64,000 bases of DNA from the IMG/VR virus record IMGVR_UViG_3300042868_007692, positions 1 to 64,000 of that record; one strand, given 5' to 3'. The translations under genes were made by a program, and so were the position numbers. The notes beneath the pieces are model-generated. The model worked only from the letters and a program-made list of their open reading frames with translations. It did not search any database and was not told the origin of the DNA. Every line of letters begins with the position of its first letter. The first letter of the stretch is position 1. This DNA comes from a virus. Shown here piece by piece: positions 20,774 to 27,152 of this stretch.

Positions 20774-21802
20774 ATGAGCTTATTTCAATACAATTCAGAT
20801 AAACTTGATAGAAGAGGATATATAAGTAAGGAAAGTATTTTGTCTTTAGTTACTCAAGAAGATGTATTTGAGTTAGTGTTCAAATTTAAACCTGAAGAAT
20901 TTGAGTATGTAGTATCTCCTTTAAGAAATGATGATGTACCAGGATGTTGGTTTTCTTATCATGATAATGGTACTCTCTATTTTGTAGACTTTGGTAATTC
21001 TAGGACTCATAGTGATTGTTTTAATATAGTCCAGGACTATTACAAATTTCCAAACTTCTATTTGACTTTAGAATTTATTCATAACTCTTTAATTAGAGGT
21101 AAGACTGAATTAAAGGAAATAGAACCTAAAAAAATAATCCAAAAAGTATCCAAAGAAGGAGTCAAACTCTTAATAGAAGCAAGACCATTTAGTGAGCAAG
21201 ATGGTTATTTCTGGTCTAAGTATGGTATTAGTAAAGCCAATCTAAAAGAAGACAGAGTTTTTCCTATTCATAGATTATATGCTTTGAATACTAAAACAGG
21301 AAGTCATGCTATTGAATGCAAAGATTTAGCATACAGTTACACTGATTTTCCTGAAGCTAGAAAGAAAATCTATTTTCCTTTAAGACAAGGAAAGAATAGG
21401 TTCATTACTAATTGTAATAAAGATGATGTAGGTGGCATCAACTCTCTGTCTCAATATAGTAAGCAACTTATTATTTCTAAAAGCTACAAGGATTATAGAG
21501 TACTTAAAAATAATGGAAAAAATGTAGTTTGGTTTCAAAATGAAGGTATGATACCCAATAATGAAATTATAAACAAATTGGTTAAACTTTATTCAGAAAT
21601 TATTGTATGGTTTGACAATGATCAGCCTGGAATTATAGCTTCAGAAAAAGTCAAACAACATATAAATTCCATTATTCCAAGTAGAGCTAAAAATCTATGG
21701 CTACCTGAGAGAGGGTTAGAAATAGGGGTTAAAGACCCTTCAGATTGTATAGCTAAAGACCCTATTTATTTTCAACAATTCTTAAAAGACTTTACAAAAT
21801 GA
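20774..21802 (+). CDS. TOPRIM primase, DnaG-like
   Basis: The 342-residue protein has a TOPRIM-type C-terminal half: IISKSYKDYRVL near 234-244, VVWFQNEG, and the acidic motif VWFDNDQPG (D281, D283). The N-terminal half (SPLRNDDVPGCWFSYHDNGTLYFVDFG) has the layout of a CHC2-type domain but lacks the four zinc ligands, so that domain is degenerate. It would make RNA primers alongside the DnaB-like helicase. It overlaps the UNG-like gene by four bases. Confidence 0.8.
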   Translation: MSLFQYNSDKLDRRGYISKESILSLVTQEDVFELVFKFKPEEFEYVVSPLRNDDVPGCWFSYHDNGTLYFVDFGNSRTHSDCFNIVQDYYKFPNFYLTLEFIHNSLIRGKTELKEIEPKKIIQKVSKEGVKLLIEARPFSEQDGYFWSKYGISKANLKEDRVFPIHRLYALNTKTGSHAIECKDLAYSYTDFPEARKKIYFPLRQGKNRFITNCNKDDVGGINSLSQYSKQLIISKSYKDYRVLKNNGKNVVWFQNEGMIPNNEIINKLVKLYSEIIVWFDNDQPGIIASEKVKQHINSIIPSRAKNLWLPERGLEIGVKDPSDCIAKDPIYFQQFLKDFTK

Positions 21803-22338
21803 ATTTCAATCATATTCATTATTCTTGGAAACCCCTTCTAAGAGAATTTAATACAGATGCTTTTCTTTACTTTAAAAATGAAGTCCTTCCAAAAGAAAAA
21901 TATTACCCTGAAGCTGATAAAGTTTTCAGGGTTTTTTCTATGCCTGTGTCAGCTATTAAAATAGTAGTTATTGGCTCATGGAAACACCCTAATATCAGAG
22001 AAATAGAAAAGCAAGGCTTATTCTGGCTACCTATTTCCTTAACACAAGGTGTAGATGTGGACCACACAGAATATTGGGAGCCCTTCATTAAAAAGGTAGT
22101 GTATTTTATATCCAAGAGTAACCCTACTATTTGGATAATGCCTACAACAGAAGCACAAAGATTTACAGCTAATCTACCTGTCAAATCTATATTTAATGTG
22201 CTAAGATATGATGATAGCCTTATTAATCAGATTCCCATCAATGTAGATTACAATTATGTGTTTAAAGGTATTTATGTAAATACTGAACACATAAACATCC
22301 TCCTAAAGAGATTAGGTAGGGAAACAATTAATTGGTAA
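21799..22338 (+). CDS. Uracil-DNA glycosylase family protein lacking the catalytic motif
   Basis: The 179-residue protein matches the UNG layout. It has SWKPLLREF near the start, a VVIG strand at 56-59, GLFWLPISL, and the C-terminal signature NTEHINILLKRLGRETINW (compare HFSKTNxYLxxxGxxPIDW). The usual GQDPYHG, holding the catalytic Asp, is GSWKHPN here, and HPSPLS is missing. UNG activity is therefore doubtful. A DNA-scanning, processivity or structural role is possible, as for some viral UNG-fold proteins. Confidence 0.7.
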   Translation: MNFNHIHYSWKPLLREFNTDAFLYFKNEVLPKEKYYPEADKVFRVFSMPVSAIKIVVIGSWKHPNIREIEKQGLFWLPISLTQGVDVDHTEYWEPFIKKVVYFISKSNPTIWIMPTTEAQRFTANLPVKSIFNVLRYDDSLINQIPINVDYNYVFKGIYVNTEHINILLKRLGRETINW

Positions 22339-22357: not shown

Positions 22358-23107
22358 ATGAGTGAAGTACAAGCTCCGGTTACTACTGAAAGAGAAGTAA
22401 CAATTTATGCCACTAGAGGTGGTAACATGAAAAAAATCATGACATCTGTTAAAACTTGGGGAGAATTACAACCCTTAGTTAGAGGAGAAGGTTTTGATTT
22501 AGGTTCATTATTAGCTGCTGAGAACATCAACAAGACAGACCTTGTTAATGATTTAGCAATATTACCTGAAGGAAACTTCAGATTATTCTTAAGACCAAAA
22601 CAAACTAAGTCTGGTGCAACTCCTGATAGAAAAGAATGTTTTGCTATTATCAAAGCTCATTTAGCTGTTTACCCTAATGATAAACAAAAGTTTATCATTG
22701 ATGGTAAAAACATGACTCAGTTATCTACTCCTGTAGTACAGGATTTAGTGGCTAAGTATTGTAAAGGTACTGATATTGCATCTGCTGTTGCTGAAGCTCC
22801 AGTTAAAGAGAAAGCTCCAAAAGCTGAAGTTGTAAAAAAAGTAGAAGATGTTGTAGAGTCTGTAAAAGAATCTAAAACTGAAAATACTCCAGCTACACCT
22901 CTTACAGATGCTGTGAGAGTTGAAGAAGCTTTAAAACTTATTGCTCCTTTATCAGGTTATGACTCTTATGCTAAAGTAGAAAAGCATTTGAATAGACTTT
23001 CTGATGAAATAGCTATTGCAAATGCTCCTGCTCCAGAAATGAAAGAAGAAACTGAAGAAGAGGCTTTAGCTAGAGAAGCTAGAGAACTGTCTGCAGGTTA
23101 CAGATAA
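22358..23107 (+). CDS. Ubiquitin-like (beta-grasp) protein, candidate modifier
   Basis: Residues 12-82 (EVTIYATRGGNMKKI... TWGELQPLV... NKTDLVNDLAILPEGNFRLFLRP) have the strand-helix-strand layout of beta-grasp ubiquitin-like proteins. They are followed by KQTKSG (81-86), a possible processing site before a distinct C-terminal region. Residues 130-190 are a charged linker, and a small helical domain follows (VEEALKLIAPLSGYDS). The gene precedes E2-like, JAB and E1-like genes, which is the strongest support for the call. A terminator follows at 23115. Confidence 0.6.
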   Translation: MSEVQAPVTTEREVTIYATRGGNMKKIMTSVKTWGELQPLVRGEGFDLGSLLAAENINKTDLVNDLAILPEGNFRLFLRPKQTKSGATPDRKECFAIIKAHLAVYPNDKQKFIIDGKNMTQLSTPVVQDLVAKYCKGTDIASAVAEAPVKEKAPKAEVVKKVEDVVESVKESKTENTPATPLTDAVRVEEALKLIAPLSGYDSYAKVEKHLNRLSDEIAIANAPAPEMKEETEEEALAREARELSAGYR

Positions 23108-23114
23108 TATTAAT

Positions 23115-23150
23115 AAAGGGCTTATGTAATGTAAGCCCTTTTAATTTTTT
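23115..23150 (+). terminator. Terminator between the Ubl and E2-like genes
   Basis: AAAGGGCTTA (23115-23124) pairs perfectly with TAAGCCCTTT (23132-23141), loop TGTAATG, then TTAATTTTTT. It would make the Ubl message more abundant than the downstream enzymes, as expected when the modifier is needed in excess. Confidence 0.8.
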
Positions 23151-23155
23151 ATATT

Positions 23156-24349
23156 ATGTATATAGATGATCATCAATTACCATTTTATGAAGAAGTAGGT
23201 CAAATACTTCATAATGCTTTATTAATGAATACTCATAAAAACAAAGAATTTTTACAGTTTTTGTTTGATAAAGGTAAACTACAATTACATGGCTACCCTA
23301 ATCCTAATCAAAAAGCTATCAATGAATTTTTTAGACTTTTAGATTTATTTGAAGCTAAATACAAAAGTTTTTATGACCTAGGTTTTCATACTAAAGATGG
23401 ATACTTACAACCTTACTTTAAAGTCTTATATCCCAAGTTTACTATTGAAAATAGTGCAGGAGAAAGCCATCAAATAAGAGATTTAATAGTAGTTCATAGA
23501 ATAGCTTATAATACAAATGAAGAAGGTCATATCTATACTAGAAAACCTTTAGGAGGCAGACTAAGTAAATTTAAACTAGAAGTAGTAGGAGGTTATCAAC
23601 AAAGTCATTTAGGTTCTCATTCAAATTGGAAAAATGACCCTTTTTATACTTCAGAATTTTGTGTAGGTGGAGATACTGATGTAAGTAGAATGATAGCTGA
23701 ATTTAAAGTAGAGATGGATTGGGACAGATATGAATTATACTTATTTTGTGTTGATTCTATGGTTACTTGGGAGTCTTTAGAAGGTGTTCCTTATACAAAA
23801 ATAAGAAATATTAAGAATGCTCTTAATAACCAGGTTACTTCTGTAGATGCATCTTATGTAAGAAGAGTTGTTGATAAAATTACAAAAAATGAAATTGCTT
23901 TAGATTTAGACTTTTACATAGAGAATGGTTTATACAGAATTAGACCTAATGAAAAAGCTAATGAGTTTATTAAAAATATAGTTTTACAAACTCTTACTTT
24001 TGAGCAATACAAAGAAATCTTAGTTAGTAGAGTACCTAATACTTTCAATGAATTTCTTCAAATGAAAGCTGAGCAAGATGCTCAACAAAACTATAAAATA
24101 AGTTATCCTACTAGATACACTATTTTTAGAGGCAAAAAAGTCTTTGCCAAAATACTTAAAGAAGACACAAGAAATGAACCTGTTGTCTCTTTAGAAAACC
24201 TTATTGTTTATCCTAATTTTTTAAAAGATGTCCTTAGTCAACTTGAGTCAAGAATCTATAGCAAAGCAGTTACCCAGAGTGGAATTAAAATCTACAATTC
24301 CCTTGGTAATGCCAATAGAAGTATTACATCAGATTCAGTATCTGTGTAA
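23156..24349 (+). CDS. E2-like (ubiquitin-conjugating-like) candidate
   Basis: In the 397-residue protein, a stretch reads GGYQQSHLGSHSNWKND (145-161), SEFCVGGDTDV (167-177, with C169) and WESLEGVPY (205-213). Bacterial E2-like proteins have a similar order: His-containing segment, catalytic Cys in a CxG context, then a conserved loop. The N- and C-terminal parts are helical and unassigned. It lies between Ubl and JAB genes and overlaps the JAB gene by 122 bases. The E2 assignment rests on this local pattern and context, not on an alignment. Confidence 0.5.
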   Translation: MYIDDHQLPFYEEVGQILHNALLMNTHKNKEFLQFLFDKGKLQLHGYPNPNQKAINEFFRLLDLFEAKYKSFYDLGFHTKDGYLQPYFKVLYPKFTIENSAGESHQIRDLIVVHRIAYNTNEEGHIYTRKPLGGRLSKFKLEVVGGYQQSHLGSHSNWKNDPFYTSEFCVGGDTDVSRMIAEFKVEMDWDRYELYLFCVDSMVTWESLEGVPYTKIRNIKNALNNQVTSVDASYVRRVVDKITKNEIALDLDFYIENGLYRIRPNEKANEFIKNIVLQTLTFEQYKEILVSRVPNTFNEFLQMKAEQDAQQNYKISYPTRYTIFRGKKVFAKILKEDTRNEPVVSLENLIVYPNFLKDVLSQLESRIYSKAVTQSGIKIYNSLGNANRSITSDSVSV

Positions 24350-25475
24350 AAATATACCAAAAGTAGAGTGGTCAGGTGCTCTATTTTATACTACAGAAGG
24401 TAGTATTGAAAAACCTGGAACATTCAAAATTACTTTAAAGACAATTCTTCCATTAGATATGGGTAGTTCAGCTTATACTGAATACAATCTTGATGAAAGA
24501 TTTATGGATTTTATTGAAGAAGATTTTGAAGAAAGATGTACTTGGAAATTAGGTCATATTCATAGTCATAATGTAATGAGTGTTTTCTTCTCAGGTACAG
24601 ATATGGCAGAGCTTAATGACAATGCTCCAGCACATAATTTTTATCTTTCTTTGATAGTAAATAACTATATGGACTTTATTGCCAAAGTTGCTTTTATTGG
24701 AGAAGCTAAAAAAGATATTAAACAGGTTCCTTATACAGCTAAGAATGCTGAAGGCCATAATTATATCATTGAAAGACAAGACTTTGAAGTTAAGACTAAA
24801 AAGTTGTTTATTTATGATTGTGACATTGATACTCCTAAGAATACAATCTTAGTGACAGATCAATTTTCTGCTCAAGTAGCTAAAATTATGGAGCCTAAAC
24901 CTGTAAAAAAAGTAGAATCTAAATGGCCTGCTACTACTACTACTACTACTACAGGAAAGGGATGGCAAAGAAAGGATAATACCAGGCAATTCAAATCACA
25001 AGAAGACAGGGAAATGGAAAGTTGGAACAAAAGCTTTCAGAAAGAAACTAAAAAACCTTTCAATAATTGGGAAGATTGGGAATTACCTATTTCTACTTTA
25101 CTGGCTGAAGATTTAGAAGAAGAAGATTTAAAAGCAATGTATATTTATAATTTTGCTAAAGAATTATTTGATTTTACAGGAGGTTCTACACAAGAAGAAA
25201 CTTTAGAAGATGTTTTAGATATGTTAGTAGAGTTTAACTTAACTCCTTCTGAATTAGCTAAATCCGTAATTACAGAGTATGCTAAAGATTTTAATAAACA
25301 TTTTCCTAAAGCTAATGCTACTGAATTTGTTCAGTATACCCATGAAACTTTAGATTTATTAGAAGATGTGAAACAACTTTATCCTGAAATTGGATTAACT
25401 ATTAGAACTATTAGTTCTATGATTACTAAATTTATAGAAAATGAGACAGACAAGAGACACAACCCAGCAGTCTAG
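24228..25475 (+). CDS. JAB/JAMM metalloprotease (deubiquitinase-like)
   Basis: The 415-residue protein carries a complete JAMM signature: E47 (VEWSG), H112-x-H114 (IHSHN), S122 and D125 (FSGTD), with canonical spacing. The domain covers about residues 25-190. A Thr-rich linker (near 230-240) leads to an acidic helical C-terminal half. The enzyme would trim the Ubl precursor or remove conjugates. The start at 24228 overlaps the E2-like gene by 122 bases; ATG at 24309 would give a shorter N-terminus and less overlap. Confidence 0.85.
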   Translation: MSLVNLSQESIAKQLPRVELKSTIPLVMPIEVLHQIQYLCKNIPKVEWSGALFYTTEGSIEKPGTFKITLKTILPLDMGSSAYTEYNLDERFMDFIEEDFEERCTWKLGHIHSHNVMSVFFSGTDMAELNDNAPAHNFYLSLIVNNYMDFIAKVAFIGEAKKDIKQVPYTAKNAEGHNYIIERQDFEVKTKKLFIYDCDIDTPKNTILVTDQFSAQVAKIMEPKPVKKVESKWPATTTTTTTGKGWQRKDNTRQFKSQEDREMESWNKSFQKETKKPFNNWEDWELPISTLLAEDLEEEDLKAMYIYNFAKELFDFTGGSTQEETLEDVLDMLVEFNLTPSELAKSVITEYAKDFNKHFPKANATEFVQYTHETLDLLEDVKQLYPEIGLTIRTISSMITKFIENETDKRHNPAV

Positions 25476-26142
25476 ATTTAAAGATGCTCCATGGTTTCCT
25501 AAAAACAATGAAGTGTGCATGGTAGGTGGAGCAGGTGGTATTGGTTCTTGGTTATGTTATTTCTTAACTAAGATTGGTTTTAGAGTTAACCTCTATGACT
25601 TTGATACTGTAGAAGACCATAATCTAGGTGGTCAATTATTTATGCAATCTGACTTAGGTCAACCTAAAGTAACAGCAGTAGCAAGAGTTGTAAACTCTTT
25701 TTGTAATACTCCTATAGCTACATTCAATGAAAGAATTGATATGAATACAATGACACATTACTTTATGTTTTCTGCTTTTGATAATATGGAAGCAAGAAAT
25801 GCATTGTTTCATGTCTGGAAAAAGTCCTGGGGCTCAGTTCCTTTAGCGGTGACTCCAATCTTCATAGATGGTAGATTAGAGATAGAGCAATTACAGATAT
25901 TTTGTGTTACTCCAGAGAATGCTGACAGGTATGAAAGAGACCATTTGTTTCATGATTCAGTAGTAGAAGAAGCACCTTGTACTATGAAACAAAGTTCTCA
26001 TACAGCAGCTATGATAGGAACTCTTATGACTTCCTATTTTACTAATCATATTGCTAACATTTATAGTGGAGAGACTATCAGAGAAGTCCCTTTCTACTAT
26101 GAATTTGTAGTTCCTATGAACTACTCAGCTTCTGAACTATGA
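25441..26142 (+). CDS. E1-like ThiF/MoeB-family adenylyltransferase
   Basis: The 233-residue protein has the nucleotide-binding loop GGAGGIGS (29-36), the YDFDTVEDHNLGGQ motif (52-65) matching D-x-VExxNLxRQ of E1 enzymes, K76 in GQPKV, and D114 in the FDNxEAR region. C180 (APCTMKQSSH) is the candidate thioester cysteine. It is minimal in length, without a second adenylation or UBA-like domain. It overlaps the JAB gene by 35 bases and the next gene by four. Activation of the Ubl encoded at 22358 is inferred. Confidence 0.85.
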   Translation: MRQTRDTTQQSRFKDAPWFPKNNEVCMVGGAGGIGSWLCYFLTKIGFRVNLYDFDTVEDHNLGGQLFMQSDLGQPKVTAVARVVNSFCNTPIATFNERIDMNTMTHYFMFSAFDNMEARNALFHVWKKSWGSVPLAVTPIFIDGRLEIEQLQIFCVTPENADRYERDHLFHDSVVEEAPCTMKQSSHTAAMIGTLMTSYFTNHIANIYSGETIREVPFYYEFVVPMNYSASEL

Positions 26143-27152
26143 GAGTAATATCCTCTACATTAGGAAGCTTAACCAATGATCCTTTTAAAATTACTGTATT
26201 AGCAGCTAATACCTACATTCCTATCTATGCTTTTCACACATATTATCAGGAAGAAGGTGTTAAATTCTATAAAAGACCTTCTTTAGAGAAAGGTACTCTT
26301 AGAAAACCTAATACTTTAAAGCACATAAAGGATGCTCTAGAAATGGCTATTGCCCCAAGAAGAATTCTTATAGGTAATAAAAATTATTACTTTATAAAAG
26401 GTGCAATGTACACTGAGGATGGGAATCCTCTTATGGTGTTAGGTATGTCTAAAGAAGCTTTTAAAAATCCTGATATTCCTAATTTCTCTGATAATTATGG
26501 AGAATCAGCTAGTCTTTTTGACTATAAAAATTTTGTTATGTTTTACTCCACATCTTTCTTTACTGAGCCTAGTCTTGCTCCTTTAAACAGAAGATTTCAA
26601 AAAGAAATATTAATGTCTTGCTATGAAAAAGGTATAGAGGTAAGAGTGATTACCTCATCAGAAATTGAAAAGAATACCTTTGCAAACATTTTTGAAATCC
26701 CTAAAGCTAACTCTGTTAGTCAATTAGAGGAGTACATGAACAAAGTACTACCAACAATTTTATACACAAAAGAAGAGGACACTTTTGTATTTGAAGAGTT
26801 GACAGTACCTGAAGTTGTTCAAAACCATGAATTATCTGTGGAAGAAGAAGCTCTACTATTTGATTCTGAAACTAGTCAGGAGTTGCCTGGAGTTAATCCT
26901 ACAACTTTTGATATTACTCTTAATACAGAAGAAGTAGTTGAATTACTTCCTATTTTTAGAGACCCTGAAATAGAAGAATTAGAAAGAGAAGCTGCAACTT
27001 GGGATTCTGCCCATACAGAACCTGCTTATGTAGCTCCTGAGTATCCTATAGTTCCAGAAGAAAGTATTATTCTAACACCTATAGGAGAAAGGGTAACTAA
27101 TGTTTCTTTTAGAACCACTAGACCAATAGAGCTTATTGATGACACAGAATAA
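26139..27152 (+). CDS. Unknown protein coupled to the E1-like gene
   Basis: The 337-residue protein starts by ATGA overlap with the E1-like stop. The N-terminal 200 residues appear globular (ITVLAANTYIPIYAF, PRRILIGNKNYYFIKG, FKNFVMFYSTSFF-like segments). The C-terminal third is highly acidic and disordered (VEEEALLFDSE, EEVVELLPIFRDPEIEELE). The coupling suggests a dedicated partner or substrate of the conjugation module. PRTRC-type operons also carry non-enzymatic partners, but I see no alignable motif. Confidence 0.6.
   Translation: MRVISSTLGSLTNDPFKITVLAANTYIPIYAFHTYYQEEGVKFYKRPSLEKGTLRKPNTLKHIKDALEMAIAPRRILIGNKNYYFIKGAMYTEDGNPLMVLGMSKEAFKNPDIPNFSDNYGESASLFDYKNFVMFYSTSFFTEPSLAPLNRRFQKEILMSCYEKGIEVRVITSSEIEKNTFANIFEIPKANSVSQLEEYMNKVLPTILYTKEEDTFVFEELTVPEVVQNHELSVEEEALLFDSETSQELPGVNPTTFDITLNTEEVVELLPIFRDPEIEELEREAATWDSAHTEPAYVAPEYPIVPEESIILTPIGERVTNVSFRTTRPIELIDDTE

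Follow-up and report, generated by a model that had tools for sequence, protein, structure and literature searches.

In bacteria, the conjugation of a ubiquitin-like protein (Ubl) has been described chiefly as a host defence, in the Bil and CBASS systems, or from an unexplained plasmid operon, PRTRC. The Bil defence operon encodes its Ubl, E2, JAB and E1 as separate genes, in that order. Both Bil and CBASS are deployed by bacteria against phages (PMC10286901). In CBASS, Cap2 is an E1-E2 fusion and Cap3 a JAB. The PRTRC plasmid cassette, which corresponds to operon type 6d (Iyer et al. 2006), encodes proteins E, C (Ubl), F, B (E2-like), A (JAB) and ThiF; the E2 of type 6d reportedly has no conserved His before its Cys (PMC1779556). 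Among phages, the tail-assembly proteins I and K of lambda/T1 contain a Ub-like domain and a JAB, and cleavage at a Gly has been proposed for them (PMC1779556).

A four-gene module in a crAss-like phage

The window, by which we mean the whole stretch of 64,000 nucleotides analysed here, is part of a 73-kb virus record of a crAss-like phage, and a megablast search returned no near relative among phages. CrAss-like phages, which rank with the most common human gut viruses and are known from water and fish pathogens as well, carry such a module in many cases. The preliminary description of this DNA had proposed a set of overlapping Ubl, E2-like, JAB and E1 genes, and the open reading frames were confirmed at their positions, all on the + strand, with the last four of five overlapping. 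The module (22358-26142) runs from a Ubl precursor through an E2-like protein and a JAMM/JAB peptidase to a ThiF/E1 enzyme. It is followed by a 337-aa protein (26139-27152, +; phrog_15446, function unknown) whose gene overlaps the E1 gene by 4 bases and which is restricted to a close clade, with 15 matches among the first loci including the window's own copy. Upstream, the module adjoins a uracil-DNA-glycosylase-like protein (21799-22338, +; NCBIfam UDG E 4e-6, below cut-off), whose homologue in Fpv1 is annotated as uracil-DNA glycosylase. A DnaG-type primase (20774-21802, +; phrog_12622 E 3e-91) forms the upstream border of the slot.

The gene order had been read as that of the Bil operon. 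The order does match, although it is not that of Bil alone, as PRTRC shares it and profile similarity lies nearer to PRTRC. The PRTRC order is Ubl-(F)-E2-JAB-E1, the plasmid cassettes having protein F between C and B. In hhalign comparisons, the phage E1 aligns with PRTRC ThiF at E 1e-17 and the phage JAB with PRTRC protein A at E 1e-4, around HSH...FFSxTD; the PRTRC Ubl likewise has a conserved C-terminal Gly, followed by a short tail in most copies. In contrast to PRTRC, the module here is phage-borne, and its E2 retains the conserved His before the Cys that the type-6d E2 is described as lacking. A scan of ten proteins from the module and its surroundings recognised no protein E, no protein F and no ParB-related protein, and the Ubl and E2 showed no similarity to their PRTRC counterparts beyond a C-x-G motif (hhalign, 7-sequence alignments each). 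The phage E1 scored 44 bits (E 1.6e-11) against PRTRC_ThiF (TIGR03736), under the 144.75-bit cut-off, and the PRTRC protein B model (TIGR03737) had no match in the record or in the E2-like protein.

Bil resembles the module in having separate Ubl, E2, JAB and E1 genes, but it is host-encoded whereas the module is carried by a phage. From the PADLOC Bil models only BilD matched, with the E1 (E 0.0014), and none matched the Ubl, E2 or JAB. CBASS Cap2/Cap3 shares the E2 and JAB activities predicted here, and the phage E1 matches the PADLOC E1-E2 model (E 9e-8); unlike CBASS, the phage module lacks the E1-E2 fusion and a cyclase and has its own Ubl. The lambda/T1 I and K proteins are similarly phage-borne, with a Ub-like domain, a JAB and proposed Gly cleavage, but they come without E1 or E2 and lie in a tail module rather than a replication module. 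As judged by sequence, the module falls within neither the PRTRC nor the Bil family models, though these are the closest known systems.

Predicted folds and conserved residues

The first gene encodes a Ubl precursor of 249 aa (22358-23107, +), in which a beta-grasp domain (residues 1-86) is followed by a C-terminal helical or disordered extension. A beta-grasp had been suspected in this product, and the AlphaFold2 model indeed gives a ubiquitin fold, with pLDDT of about 93-98 over residues 11-80 and best structural matches that are mostly ubiquitin-fold. Residues 12-80 of the model align with ubiquitin at an rmsd of about 1.9 over 65 residues (Z 7.6-7.9). At the sequence level, homologues were found at more than 100 viral loci, while the protein matched no Pfam, NCBIfam or PADLOC model and its profile gave chance matches only against the sequences of solved structures.

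The final strand of the Ubl model leads into an essentially invariant K-S-G (K84-S85-G86, codons 22607-22615, +), the predicted mature C-terminus and predicted JAB cleavage point. G86 is kept in 112 of 113 distinct homologues, while the number of residues after it varies from 1 to 252. Naturally short Ubls stop 1-5 residues past the Gly. A second, marine phage group has its own module, whose E1 and JAB are homologous to those of the first group (E 4e-51 and 2e-41); its Ubls likewise end in K-x-K-S-G, after which 0-33 residues follow, and two stop exactly on the Gly. Because natural short forms thus end on the KSG Gly or 1-5 residues after it, C-terminal processing of the longer precursors is predicted, and a C-terminal Gly suited to activation appears to be available, the short proteins ending 0-5 residues after the corresponding position. 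The terminus is a single Gly and not Gly-Gly, which counts against a conjugation reading.

The E2-like protein (397 aa; 23156-24349, +) represents a new sequence family, with no match to any Pfam, NCBIfam or PADLOC model, chance matches only when its profile was compared with the sequences of solved structures, and no relatives in a scan of GTDB genomes. Its AlphaFold2 model (pLDDT 88.7, pTM 0.81) has a predicted UBC/UEV/RWD-like architecture around C169, in agreement with the fold proposed beforehand, with a core at about residues 45-225. Along the chain, C169 comes after the strands of a beta-meander (73-139) and before helices (175-203), as expected of the catalytic Cys of an E2. Structural alignment with VIA-align returned mostly UEV, UBC and RWD chains, yet all with Z <8, including the Tsg101 UEV domain (Z 6.5, rmsd 3.4, 128 aligned), Ube2W (Z 5.5) and UbcH5b (Z 5.1). 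Foldseek alone found nothing significant for this model in the PDB (best E 0.25), and in a viral library only function-unknown proteins, some of them from crAss-like phages.

With Tsg101 UEV domains as its nearest structural neighbours, the E2-like protein could be an inert scaffold of UEV/RWD type, in which case the Ubl, once loaded on E1, would be passed on by some other enzyme or would not be transferred at all. Tsg101 UEV domains lack the catalytic cysteine. In the phage family, however, H151 (codon 23606-23608, +) and C169 (codon 23660-23662, +) are each present in 117/117 non-gap rows of distinct sequences, and G210 in 118/118. The HxxxH feature pointed out earlier is itself not conserved; only its H151 is, as part of [HQF]-S-H, and C169-V-G follows further on. 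The E2 candidate at the same operon position in the marine group retains HPH and then CxG, with both His, the Cys and the Gly in 48/48 sequences and the Pro in 46/48, and this HPH...C reads as the classical E2 motif. An inert scaffold therefore strikes us as highly improbable, and we retain a predicted catalytic, E2-like role for C169.

The third gene encodes a putative deconjugase/maturase, a JAMM/JAB metallopeptidase of 415 aa with a C-terminal extension (24228-25475, +). Its zinc-ligand pattern E...HxH...SxxD (E47, H112, H114, S122 and D125) is invariant in non-gap rows. The window's JAB falls under the Pfam cut-off, which counts against the assignment, but it matches by profile its homologue in the second phage group, which clears the cut-off for Prok-JAB. 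The E1-like adenylating enzyme (233 aa, ThiF fold; 25441-26142, +) matches Pfam ThiF at E 9e-16 and contains the nucleotide-binding motif GGxGGIGS, K76 and D114 (115/115 each), R145 and the predicted catalytic C180 (103/106). An apparent loss of this Cys in four loci (L034-L037) is more likely a misalignment, as these sequences carry VSACG. All residues named in the preliminary description sit where it placed them, and across the 113-118 distinct homologues counted per protein their conservation in Ubl, E2, JAB and E1 is far beyond chance.

Inheritance, proposed mechanism and role

Of the 148 related viral E1 loci for which 4.5 kb or more of upstream sequence is available, 142 have all four genes in the same order; the remaining 6 come from divergent phages whose Ubl and E2 genes are analogous ones. 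The complete modules comprise 82 E1 clusters at 90% identity and 18 at 50% identity. Across 11 complete crAss-like genomes, E1 and E2 are all-or-none; the module is present or absent as a whole.

The predicted folds and the conservation of C169 and C180 support the earlier suggestion of a phage-carried conjugation pathway, and we consider it very probable that these genes form a self-contained phage pathway for Ubl conjugation and deconjugation. In the proposed scheme, the JAB would cleave the Ubl precursor after G86, exposing ...KSG, and the E1 would adenylate G86 and hold the Ubl as a thioester on C180. The Ubl would then move on to C169 of the E2-like protein, which would link it to target proteins, on their amino groups, by an isopeptide bond; conjugation may also be undone by the JAB. 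The data show the gene content, order, co-inheritance and essentially invariant residues, and naturally shortened Ubls locate the functional C-terminus at the Gly. The chemistry, and transfer to proteins rather than of sulfur to a metabolite, are what we infer from them. No E3-like gene was identified, which is a point against the scheme.

Ubl, JAB and ThiF are also known together from sulfur-assimilation operons (PMC1779556), and among NCBIfam families the E1 matches a ThiS adenylyltransferase best. The Ubl might thus be a sulfur carrier of ThiS/MoaD/CysO type, with the E1 making a thiocarboxylate whose sulfur goes to a nucleotide, tRNA or metabolite of the phage, and with the JAB stripping adducts. 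We regard this as distinctly unlikely, since the other three are always accompanied by an E2-like protein whose His/Cys pair is invariant, nearly all Ubls have propeptides, and Pfam scans of the neighbouring genes contained no rhodanese-type sulfur donor, desulfurase or sulfotransferase.

For the conjugation pathway, the preliminary description had considered host proteins, the phage's own virion, rivals or an action against host Bil. The most likely role would be modification of host or phage proteins early in takeover or while DNA is replicated, given that the module lies within the replication block and that relatives swap it for other accessory cassettes. Location and cassette exchange speak, if weakly, for host takeover or control of replication rather than modification of the virion. 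The slot is flanked by primase in crAss001, cr111_1, cr108_1, cr116_1 and phi14:2, and in relatives holds an amidoligase cassette or rIIAB-like genes instead of the module. T4 rIIAB counters an exclusion system. The rIIAB-like genes in this slot in a relative, together with the use of Bil and CBASS by bacteria against phages (PMC10286901), could mean that the module serves as a decoy for such defences or as their antagonist, for example through a JAB that strips host conjugates, and not a tagging pathway of its own. This is unlikely in our view, as an antagonist needs less than a full set of Ubl, E1 and E2 whose catalytic residues are intact, and the similarity to PADLOC BilD is weak.

Returning to a tagging pathway, we tentatively propose that a complete and mobile Ubl system (modifier, E1, new-family E2 and deconjugase) is present in several large phage lineages and tags proteins for host takeover or replisome control. 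Covalent tagging might then be one of several interchangeable takeover programmes, because the slot in relatives holds an amidoligase/ATP-grasp cassette, predicted to ligate proteins or peptides, or the rIIAB-like genes. A whole pathway borne by a virus would invert the host-defence picture of bacterial Ubl conjugation. Neither ubiquitin nor ThiF comes up in the papers on crAss-like phages that were checked, though the primary Bil papers may mention the module.

Cultured carriers of the module are crAss001, Bacteroides phage DAC15 and Flavobacterium psychrophilum phages, which puts its function within reach of direct testing; its genes in cultured phages are annotated 'thiamine biosynthesis protein', 'metalloprotease' or 'hypothetical'. 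In crAss001 the Ubl, E2, JAB and E1 correspond to gp79, gp78, gp77 and gp76. With the K-S-G end, trypsin is predicted to leave Ser-Gly (+144.05 Da) on lysines that carry the modifier, a remnant searchable in proteomes of crAss001-infected cells. In Fpv1 the JAB gene is split, and we rejected its reading as a pseudogene: a 1-kb insert at the HxH codons, which a close Fpv phage lacks in its IMG/VR copy, matches a group I intron at E 3e-9, just under the Rfam gathering score.

Organization and distribution of the module

The four module genes lie head to tail, with the Ubl precursor gene (22358−23107) followed by the E2-like gene (23156−24349), the JAB gene (24228−25475), and, as the last of the four, the E1 gene (25441−26142). 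A lineage-specific gene (26139−27152) comes directly after. Because open reading frames were drawn from the earliest possible start codon, the overlaps between these genes are upper bounds. The parent virus record comprises 73,164 bases, of which the window represents bases 1−64000, and the window carries several crAss-like features: a 4430-residue protein resembling a phage virion protein, a family A DNA polymerase, a ligase, a DnaB-like helicase, a DnaG-type primase, and a UDG-like gene. Homologues of the module were found in the Fpv phages of Flavobacterium psychrophilum, which have a distant crAss-like major capsid protein in common, as well as among the Steigviridae, for example in Bacteroides phage crAss001.

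Scans of viral contigs recovered E2 at more than 80 loci, along with 370 E1 matches, 80 of which were kept. Where E1 was present with at least 4.5 kb upstream, Ubl, E2, JAB, and E1 followed the order of the window at 142 of 148 loci; the six exceptions fall into two divergent phage groups, whose Ubl and E2 genes are analogous and identically ordered. Since contigs overlap one another and some are fragments, we also give distinct-sequence counts: the E1 proteins of complete modules group into 82 clusters at 90% identity, or 18 at 50%. Pattern-seeded searches of GTDB species genomes returned no E2 relative and only two E1 relatives, both on short metagenome contigs. The module therefore looks viral, within the limits of such searches.

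A large second, marine phage group (L028−L033, L212−L289), recovered mainly as short contigs, has an operon with its own Ubl, an HPH...CxG protein, JAB, and E1, adjoining genes that, judged by eye, resemble a Sak4-type ATPase and SSB. In a third group (L034−L037), Ubl, an NPHL...CxG protein, JAB, and ThiF adjoin a reverse-transcriptase-like gene.

Predicted Ubl processing, JAB, and E1

The AlphaFold2 model of the Ubl contains a confident beta-beta-alpha-beta-beta domain, whose top structural matches are nearly all ubiquitin-fold domains and which superimposes on ubiquitin with an rmsd of ~1.9 over 65 residues. Its final strand reaches K84-S85-G86, and G86 is conserved in 112 of 113 distinct homologues, followed by anything from 1 to 252 residues. 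Twelve natural short Ubls have 1−5 residues beyond the glycine, while the short Ubls of the marine group (~69−150 residues) have a K-x-K-S-G type end with tails of 0−33 residues, two of them terminating exactly at the glycine. Such variation is what would be predicted for a processed ubiquitin-like precursor. It also places the predicted JAB cut near residue 86, as the preliminary description had proposed. In many precursors, a conserved helical extension of the GKNxTxxxT type follows the glycine (residues 87−249, window 22616−23104), possibly a second product freed by cleavage.

All JAB zinc ligands are conserved. JAB and E1 are homologous between the window's phage group and the marine group (E 2e-41 and 4e-51, respectively), and the JAB of the marine group scores above the Pfam cut-off for Prok-JAB. 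E1 matches ThiF and, more distantly, PRTRC ThiF, with C180 mostly in a P-C-T context. In crAss001, gp76 (L002, 14539−15696) is an E1 with ~150 extra N-terminal residues. In phage Fpv1 (L001, 13097−15389), an insert of ~1 kb splits the JAB gene where the HxH zinc motif is encoded; the insert contains a match to a group I intron (E 3e-9) and, on the reverse strand, an endonuclease-like ORF. The close relative L055 has a JAB gene without the insert, with flanks 98.8−100% identical.

The E2 candidate

The E2 assignment of the 23156 product had been the weakest link of the preliminary description. No family model matches this protein, and Foldseek by itself gave no significant match for its confident structural model (pLDDT 88.7, pTM 0.81), which is composed of a helix, a strand meander, a loop with H151 and C169, and further helices. 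Structural realignment placed UEV, UBC, and RWD domains at nearly all listed ranks, at modest Z values of 5−6.5. H151 and C169 are invariant among homologues, as is, but for rare exceptions, an E-S-x-E-G-x-P motif. The same operon position in the marine group is occupied by a protein of 400−730 residues with a near-invariant HPH and a CxG ~8 residues on, close to the HPN...C motif of classical E2s. Several lines, namely the model, the realignment, the conserved residues, and the marine counterpart, thus support the 23156 product as an E2-like candidate.

Relation to known systems and possible role

The part of Iyer et al. 2006 (PMC1779556) considered here describes operons of bacteria and plasmids that combine Ubl, JAB, E1, and E2; from its composition, we equate this type (6d) with PRTRC. 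It also describes a phage tail Ub-like/JAB pair, but no phage module that contains E1 and E2. Neither ubiquitin nor ThiF is mentioned in the Yutin 2021 crAss-like phage paper or the 2023 Crassvirales review. The phage module shares its gene order with PRTRC (seven cassettes compared) and Bil but matches the family models of neither, and is therefore treated as a separate variant that would work like them.

By its components and residues, the module could support a full conjugation cycle. JAB would mature the precursor by cutting after G86, and E1 would adenylate the mature Ubl and hold it as a thioester on C180. Transthiolation to C169 of E2 would precede transfer to amino groups of targets, and JAB could reverse the attachment. 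A sulfur-carrier role is less likely than conjugation, because an E2-like protein is present and the scanned neighbours contain no sulfur-donor genes.

In profile searches of 11 complete crAss-like genomes, E1 and E2 were both present in four and both absent in seven, three of the latter being Steigviridae. According to the annotations as deposited for these three genomes, the primase-UDG slot of cr108_1 and of Cellulophaga phage phi14:2 holds a cassette of ATP-grasp, COOH-NH2 ligase, and amidotransferase genes, and that of cr116_1 holds rIIA- and rIIB-like genes; functional equivalence of these cassettes to the Ubl module is only a hypothesis. Location in the replication block, the Sak4- and SSB-like neighbours in the marine group, and cassette exchange suggest a role in host takeover or replication control.

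Elsewhere in the window, a short patch close to the C-terminus of the virion-like protein (43230−56522) resembles a metalloprotease, and a phage protein (32743−33594) is similar to spore photoproduct lyase (E 2e-13 to Pfam SPL). ARAGORN reports a tmRNA gene (5340−5786) with the tag GIEELSSASKEVELAVAA, without an Rfam match at the gathering score.
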